Under the pieces are notes generated by a model, which was not told where the DNA came from, made no database searches, and saw nothing but the letters and a program-made list of their open reading frames with translations. A stretch of 36,593 nt of DNA, taken from positions 1 to 36,593 of IMG/VR virus record IMGVR_UViG_3300035701_000134; one strand, 5' to 3'. The stretch's first letter is position 1; each line of letters begins with the position of its first letter. The position numbers and the translations under genes are program-made. This document shows positions 2,184 through 2,966 of this stretch, one piece after another. Source of the stretch: a virus.

Positions 2184-2966
2184 ATGAAACACCTGGACTT
2201 GTTTTCGGGGATCGGCGGTTTTGCTTTAGCCTGTCAGTGGGCAGGGATAGAAACGATAGGCTTTGTGGAGATAGACAAGTATTGCCAGAAGGTTTTAAGA
2301 AGACACTGGCCGAATGTGCCAATAGTGGAGGATATTAGAGATGTCAAAGAAGATACATTCCCAAGACCAGTTGACCTTATTACAGGGGGATTCCCTTGCC
2401 AAGACATTTCTAATGCAAACACAACAACGACCCCTCAAGGATTAGAGGGAGAAAGGTCAGGATTATGGAATGAGTATAAGAGACTGGTTTCTACAATACG
2501 ACCCAAATACATCGTCGTGGAGAACACCTCAGCTTTGCTTTTCAGGGGACTTGCAAGAGTTCTCGGAGACCTTTGTGAGATTGGGTATGATGCGGAGTGG
2601 AAAGTTATATCGGCTCAAGAAGTCGGAGCCCCACATAAGAGAGAAAGGGTGTGGGTCGTGGCCTACCCCAGAGGCCAGCTTGGGGTTAATAGGGTCATAT
2701 TCTCCGAAGACAGCCCAAAGGTTAATGTCTGGGACAAGGATAAGGAAAAGTGGGGCATCAATCGGAACTTCTCTAAAATGGGAACCGAGGTTGTATCCCG
2801 ATTGGATACTGAGTGGGCGGAAGGGAACTGTAATCCCGACCTTTTGCGAATATCTTATGGGATTCCCAACCAACTGGACAGACTTAAATGTTTAGGAAAT
2901 GCAATCGTGCCACAGATAGCTTATGAGATTATCAAGGTGATTATGACAGGAGAGAGGTATGGCTAG
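2184..2966 (+). CDS. C5-cytosine DNA methyltransferase, 260 aa
   Basis: The conserved C5-methyltransferase motifs appear in order: motif I HLDLFSGIGGFALA, motif IV GGFPCQDIS with the catalytic cysteine after the proline, motif VI VVENTSAL, motif VIII GAPHKRERVWVVA, and motifs IX-X DRLKCLGNAIVPQ. It transfers a methyl group from SAM to cytosine C5 in DNA, probably protecting phage DNA from restriction. At 260 residues it is short, because the target-recognition region between motifs VIII and IX is small. No partner restriction gene is present, so it is an orphan. Much of the second half (2470-2895) is also open in another frame that resembles a separate phage family. The gene is bounded by 16-bp direct repeats and its end overlaps the next gene. 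Confidence 0.92.
   Translation: MKHLDLFSGIGGFALACQWAGIETIGFVEIDKYCQKVLRRHWPNVPIVEDIRDVKEDTFPRPVDLITGGFPCQDISNANTTTTPQGLEGERSGLWNEYKRLVSTIRPKYIVVENTSALLFRGLARVLGDLCEIGYDAEWKVISAQEVGAPHKRERVWVVAYPRGQLGVNRVIFSEDSPKVNVWDKDKEKWGINRNFSKMGTEVVSRLDTEWAEGNCNPDLLRISYGIPNQLDRLKCLGNAIVPQIAYEIIKVIMTGERYG
2470..2895 (+). CDS. Overlapping frame within the methyltransferase gene, resembles a phage methyltransferase-associated family, 141 aa
   Basis: This frame is open for 141 codons entirely inside the methyltransferase gene. It starts with an ATG that has AGGA seven bases upstream. Its text contains blocks I know from many phage proteins annotated as methyltransferase-associated: TSSWRTPQLCFSGDL, FSETFVRLGMMRSG, GCGSWPTPEAS and a C-terminal EYLMGFPTNWTDL. 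The methyltransferase frame over the same bases carries canonical motifs VI, VIII and IX-X. Either both frames are translated or this family originates from shadow frames of such genes. The resemblance is from memory, not a search. Confidence 0.4.
   Translation: MSIRDWFLQYDPNTSSWRTPQLCFSGDLQEFSETFVRLGMMRSGKLYRLKKSEPHIREKGCGSWPTPEASLGLIGSYSPKTAQRLMSGTRIRKSGASIGTSLKWEPRLYPDWILSGRKGTVIPTFCEYLMGFPTNWTDLNV
2942..2957 (+). repeat. Direct repeat C, right copy
   Basis: Exact second copy of 2163-2178. It lies at the 3' end of the methyltransferase and also supplies the GGAGAGAGG ribosome site of the next gene. Confidence 0.85.

Follow-up and report, generated by a model that had tools for sequence, protein, structure and literature searches.

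A phage cytosine methyltransferase gene that probably encodes two interlocked subunits

A cytosine methyltransferase gene in a 36.6-kb phage record, which also contains terminase and replication-initiation genes, is overlapped on the same strand by a second long open reading frame (ORF), shifted by +1. Are two proteins encoded on these bases and, if so, what is the second one? Here, the window is the whole 36,593-nucleotide stretch analysed, and alpha and beta denote the frame-0 and +1-frame products of the methyltransferase gene at 2184-2966. Alpha (plus strand, 260 aa) carries the catalytic domain of C5-cytosine DNA methyltransferases, matching PF00145 at 2.1e-44 and PHROG_363 at 1.2e-76. 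Beta lies at 2470-2895 (plus strand, 141 aa) and matches the PHROG_1008 family (8.8e-17). A previous sequence-only reading had pointed to this ORF of 141 codons opened by AGGA plus ATG, and the AGGA, a possible ribosome-binding site, was confirmed at 2459-2462 (plus strand), seven bases before the ATG at 2470. The +1 blocks that it quoted are present in the translation, and GIPNQLDRL in frame 0 is indeed aligned base for base with MGFPTNWTDL. In the stretch that leads from the preceding +1 stop to the conserved region, ATG 2470 is the sole ATG, GTG or TTG in the window, and the +1 frame is without stops from 2446 to 2892 (149 codons). We also observed, in two intergenic gaps, the 23-bp sequence AAGAAGTAATGGAGCTATGACAG repeated perfectly (1819-1841 and 2148-2170; 0 expected); its second copy is directly 5' of the methyltransferase gene.

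Openness and selection in the two frames

The open +1 frame was compared with a null model in which synonymous codons were shuffled within each gene, so that protein and codon usage were kept. The sample comprised 135 non-redundant, divergent methyltransferase genes, recruited partly by the +1 family and partly by the methyltransferase alone. The longest +1 run in the window, 149 codons, was compared with a shuffle mean of 59 (p=0.003), and over the 135 genes the longest run was 225 codons versus 107 in shuffles. The same pattern as in the whole set was seen in the methyltransferase-recruited subset (211 versus 95 expected), and the +2 control was at chance level (60 versus 64). Stops in the +1 frame were close to zero per column over reference codons 91-230, except in one 10-codon bin, and were common on both sides.

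Synonymous sites were constrained in the same part of the gene. Among the relatives, the ratio of 4-fold third-base identity to expectation was 1.05 at codons 1-60, 1.9 at codons 96-170 and 2.2 at codons 216-245, with 1.11 at 241-250 and about 1.05 at 251-260, and it peaked at 3.3 (0.904 identity) opposite LNPxWVEWLMGFP. The excess of 4-fold conservation is thus 1.9-3.3-fold across most of the overlap, though not all of it, and about 1.05 outside. For the window against its 134 relatives, 4-fold identity in the overlap was 0.604 versus 0.286 in shuffles, a value reached by 0/300 of them; outside the overlap it equalled the shuffles. The window +1 translation also scored 216.6 bits on a +1 profile built from other genes (154.7 for the top of 100 shuffles), but this test was judged insufficient alone and was not relied on, because the +2 frame scores above shuffles too.

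Selection was then assigned to frames by a two-frame dN/dS analysis of 43 pairs of related genes, 75-97% identical, in which each possible change was classed in both frames; the pairs are partly non-independent, and no close relative of the window is among them. At codons 1-50, frame 0 was strongly conserved (w=0.05) and the +1 frame unconstrained. Both frames were constrained at codons 96-165 (w0=0.20 for frame 0, w1=0.38 for the +1 frame). In the region of the target-recognition domain (TRD), codons 166-210, frame 0 was neutral (w=1.06, 0.86-1.34) and the +1 frame was under selection (w=0.33, 0.19-0.49). Around motif IX, codons 211-236, frame 0 was weakly constrained (w0=0.68; w1=0.21), and from codon 237 onward constraint lay on frame 0 (w0=0.10; +1 w=0.63). 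In these close pairs constraint therefore passes along the gene from frame 0 to both frames, to the +1 frame and back to frame 0. Codon-position divergence behaved in a similar order: frame-0 third positions were most variable up to about codon 120, first positions at 151-225, and third positions again from about 226.

These values map onto the window as follows, all on the plus strand. Alpha codons 1-165, with catalytic motifs I-VIII, span 2184-2678 and are constrained in frame 0. The N-terminal cassette of beta, YDPxxSSWRT..GMMRSG..SWPTPEAS, lies at 2497-2679 over alpha motifs VI-VIII, in the stretch where both frames are constrained and the 4-fold ratio is 1.9. The interval between motifs VIII and X, 2679-2891, contains the TRD position and motif IX, both selected in the +1 frame, and frame 0 forms an open, mostly neutral bridge. 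Past the overlap, alpha carries motif X (LGNAIVPQ) and a C-terminal helix at 2892-2963, where the +1 frame is unconstrained. Since frame 0 is neutral or nearly so between motifs VIII and X, it looks like a passenger there. Overprinting, which had been offered as an alternative to dual coding, thus describes one part of the overlap: the beta N-terminal region over motifs VI-VIII is the overprinted part, and in the stretch from VIII to X it is frame 0 that appears to be carried along.

Could the open frame and its similarity be by-products of codon usage and methyltransferase conservation, with no second product at all? Some +1 motifs do derive from frame-0 motifs (DFPARTS from GGFPCQDIS, WPTP from VAYP), and the behaviour of the +2 frame in the profile tests is in line with this explanation. 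However, it is extremely unlikely in view of the openness, the 4-fold constraint, the frame-specific dN/dS, the flip in codon positions and the +1 ORFs that extend past the frame-0 stop in some loci. Chance or composition as the source of the open +1 frame was ruled out by the shuffles and the 4-fold constraint. Taken together, the +1 matches, the synonymous-site constraint and the two-frame dN/dS strongly support the dual coding suggested by the sequence-only reading, and we regard dual coding of this methyltransferase gene as near certain.

Position of motif IX in three gene layouts

The sequence-only reading had placed motifs VI, VIII and IX-X in frame 0. Motifs VI, VIII and X are indeed present in frame 0 of the window, but motif IX is not, and its conserved form lies in the +1 frame. 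Motif IX was detected in the +1 frame only in 282 loci, in frame 0 only in 22 and in both frames in 0; the loci outside these sets either encode enzymes of standard or truncated form or escaped the search pattern.

Three layouts were distinguished in bacterial loci. In type A, which includes the window and also bacterial loci, beta lies within alpha and motif X is in frame 0. In type B, found in many actinobacteria, the +1 cassette is kept, and LMGLPxGW and GNGVVP are in frame 0. In type C (Streptomyces, Catenulispora, Thermosynechococcus), frame 0 ends past motif VIII, and the +1 ORF runs beyond the frame-0 stop through LMGxPxGW (motif IX) and GNxVxP (motif X). The +1 codons past the frame-0 stop have a normal coding signature in the type C pair L221-L223 (0.09, 0.08, 0.37). 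Two viral loci, L153 and L158, have motif IX shifted to frame 0 with the cassette still in +1, and Streptomyces sp. LBL (L221, 2637-4994) carries a tandem of two type C alpha/beta pairs.

The segment LNPxWVEWLMGFPxGWT was assigned to motif IX because it stands directly before motif X, in the same frame, in types B and C. In the window it corresponds to VIPTFCEYLMGFPTNWTDL at 2830-2886 (plus strand; family consensus LNPxWVEWLMGFPxGWTDL). Over this segment, the +1 family of type A matched the frame-0 proteins of type B by profile at E=2e-9. A profile of the IX-X segment found three sequences in PDB, all of them C5 methyltransferases and singly weak (E 0.03-0.49), and Pfam searches with +1 ORFs running past frame 0 gave only one weak collinear match (PF00145 277-320, E 0.33). 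The identification of the +1 C-terminus as methyltransferase motif IX is well supported.

Two polypeptides or one

Structure prediction separated the same regions of alpha. The AlphaFold model of window alpha has a pLDDT of 82, mostly 92-98 over residues 1-165 with two blocks near 80, 47-66 across most of 171-240, and 91-96 beyond 241 (96 and 91 for motif X and the C-terminal helix). Its best Foldseek match in PDB is M.HhaI, over 166 columns only (E 6e-16); M.HaeIII matches at E 7e-15. The catalytic domain of alpha is like that of these two enzymes; unlike alpha, each of them includes the TRD and motif IX in its single chain. A TRD and motif IX in one frame before motif X, as in a single-chain enzyme, were not found in window frame 0, where IX is absent and the TRD region is neutral and predicted to be disordered. 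Beta modelled alone gave low confidence (pLDDT 64, pTM 0.32), too poor for a structure search, as might be expected for an obligate partner.

We propose, with a probability of about 0.78, that the same bases encode the two subunits of a C5-cytosine DNA methyltransferase made up of two polypeptides, as in M.EcoHK31I. Frame 0 would give alpha, with the catalytic and AdoMet-binding motifs I-VIII, a disordered and mostly neutral bridge, and motif X. The +1 frame would give beta, initiated within the gene (at ATG 2470 in the window) and consisting, in order, of the N-terminal region over motifs VI-VIII, the position of the single-chain TRD, and motif IX. Alpha and beta would assemble into the active enzyme, with the DNA target chosen by beta, and frame 0 between motifs VIII and X would stay open chiefly in order to reach motif X. 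Types A, B and C would then be frame-swapped forms of one enzyme. We infer that beta is translated as a separate polypeptide with its own start, binds alpha and holds the target-recognition domain; most likely it supplies the DNA-recognition half of the enzyme.

The beta start bears on a different explanation, in which programmed frameshifting yields one chain reading 0, +1 and 0, or a fusion of the alpha N-terminus with beta. Among the relatives, a search for a conserved beta start codon found none; internal initiation is therefore putative, and the variation in start sites, like the switch of the selected segments from 0 to +1 to 0, speaks for frameshifting. The constraint on both frames at codons 96-165 would not be accounted for by one shift close to motif VIII, though, and synonymous conservation is at baseline past codon 240, with no sign of a return slip site. 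Moreover, some loci have a beta ATG with an SD four bases 3' of the alpha ATG. We consider frameshifting improbable. A version with two shifts, to +1 near motif VIII and back to 0 before motif X, would produce a full-length methyltransferase beside the nested beta and is highly improbable, as is its corollary that the middle third of a single methyltransferase would be encoded in the other frame.

Alternatively, the +1 protein might be an independent factor, for example an anti-restriction or regulatory protein, overlapping a complete single-chain methyltransferase. Beta does have its own conserved N-terminal cassette, has no match in Pfam or PDB, and its start and SD in the window are plausible. 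Against this stand the motif IX at its C-terminus, which, wherever it was detected, was confined to a single frame of the locus, the neutrality of frame 0 just where a single-chain enzyme needs its TRD, and the presence of motif X within the +1 ORF as well in some bacteria, so that we find an independent factor unlikely and keep the two-subunit enzyme as the preferred reading.

Two-polypeptide enzymes of this group provide the closest comparison. The small ORF of M.EcoHK31I is nested in the large gene in a different frame, and the window ORF at 2470-2895 is likewise nested in the +1 frame of 2184-2966, as it is in the relatives. By description, the large polypeptide of M.EcoHK31I contains motifs I-VIII and X, and motif IX occurs in its small polypeptide alone (PMC3404938), the same arrangement as the large and small frames of the window. 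The TRD of M.EcoHK31I (YGGCCR) is predicted in the large subunit (PMC3404938), but in the genes studied here it is the small frame that is under selection in the TRD region; M.EcoHK31I also differs from the window gene in being part of a restriction-modification system, and it could not be identified on any of the enterobacterial plasmids that were inspected. In M.AquI, alpha ends after VIII and the small subunit contains motifs IX-X (PMC3404938). Loci of Streptomyces, Catenulispora and Thermosynechococcus are similar, with alpha stopping after VIII and IX-X in beta. This split was found in relatives L206, L208, L221 and L223 and not in the window, whose motif X belongs to alpha and whose beta ORF is wholly enclosed by alpha. 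The ShiLan domain, an HNH endonuclease out of frame inside a phage methylase, is also a second frame within a phage DNA methylase gene (PMC11855218); unlike window beta, it is an inserted mobile HNH gene and not native C5 methyltransferase core (PMC11855218).

Distribution and annotation in phages

PHROG_1008 was matched by all 118 of the 118 related +1 proteins scanned. It gave no match to the window frame 0, and its label, 'DNA methyltransferase', is silent on a nested second frame. The window +1 protein matched 85 phage records by tblastn, and the hidden +1 frame is conserved in hundreds of phages. Among 12 phage loci inspected, the +1 homologue was intact in the +1 frame of the methyltransferase in 10; in the other two, Mycobacterium phages Llama and AlpineSix (L005, L010), a shared indel breaks both frames. 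This indel, near 2540-2570, joins the beta N-terminus to the alpha C-terminus, and both products look disrupted. The phage family to which the sequence-only reading linked the +1 blocks, as one annotated near methyltransferases, exists as PHROG_1008, but it overlaps a methyltransferase rather than merely neighbouring one: with the exception of the indel loci, in every family-matching locus examined, the family member overlaps a methyltransferase and lies in +1 with respect to motifs VI-VIII. A search of phages, plasmids, viral contigs and bacterial genomes for beta genes standing alone gave none in the loci that were checked, as would suit an obligate partner. The +1 homologue was absent from four plasmid methyltransferases of standard type, and the +1 frames of full-length standard enzymes in the bacterial genomes searched were short.

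Some members are longer. In L171 (3044-5947) the +1 ORF (968 aa) leads without a frame change into a TOPRIM/DnaB-like primase-helicase and may be a natural beta fusion. In L023 (2854-6000) it extends over 1049 aa and weakly matches a Dam-like adenine methyltransferase (E 0.0035). In L025 (2893-3675), where the TRD is long, the +1 frame contains several repeats of a PTPxAxD unit; other long members have similar repeats, which suggest that the recognition region grows by repeat units.

Misannotation, also raised by the sequence-only reading, does occur. In Stenotrophomonas phage SOVA965 (L011), only the +1 frame (2384-2884) is annotated, as 'DNA-cytosine methyltransferase', and the real frame-0 gene (2182-2904) is left unannotated. 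In phage records generally, genes like that of the window appear as a single methyltransferase or with the wrong frame annotated, and no earlier description in phages was found in the literature searched.

Overall, the gene annotated as one protein probably encodes two interlocked subunits, and nested alpha/beta C5 methyltransferases are likely to occur widely in phages, where annotation has mostly failed to recognise them. If this is true, many phage C5 methyltransferases would be nested heterodimers whose recognition domain is missing from the annotated protein, and cloning or prediction from frame 0 alone would miss it. The locus also offers a same-strand gene overlap that is long and deeply conserved, in which the point where selection is handed over between frames can be measured, and it is well suited to work on overlapping genes and split enzymes.
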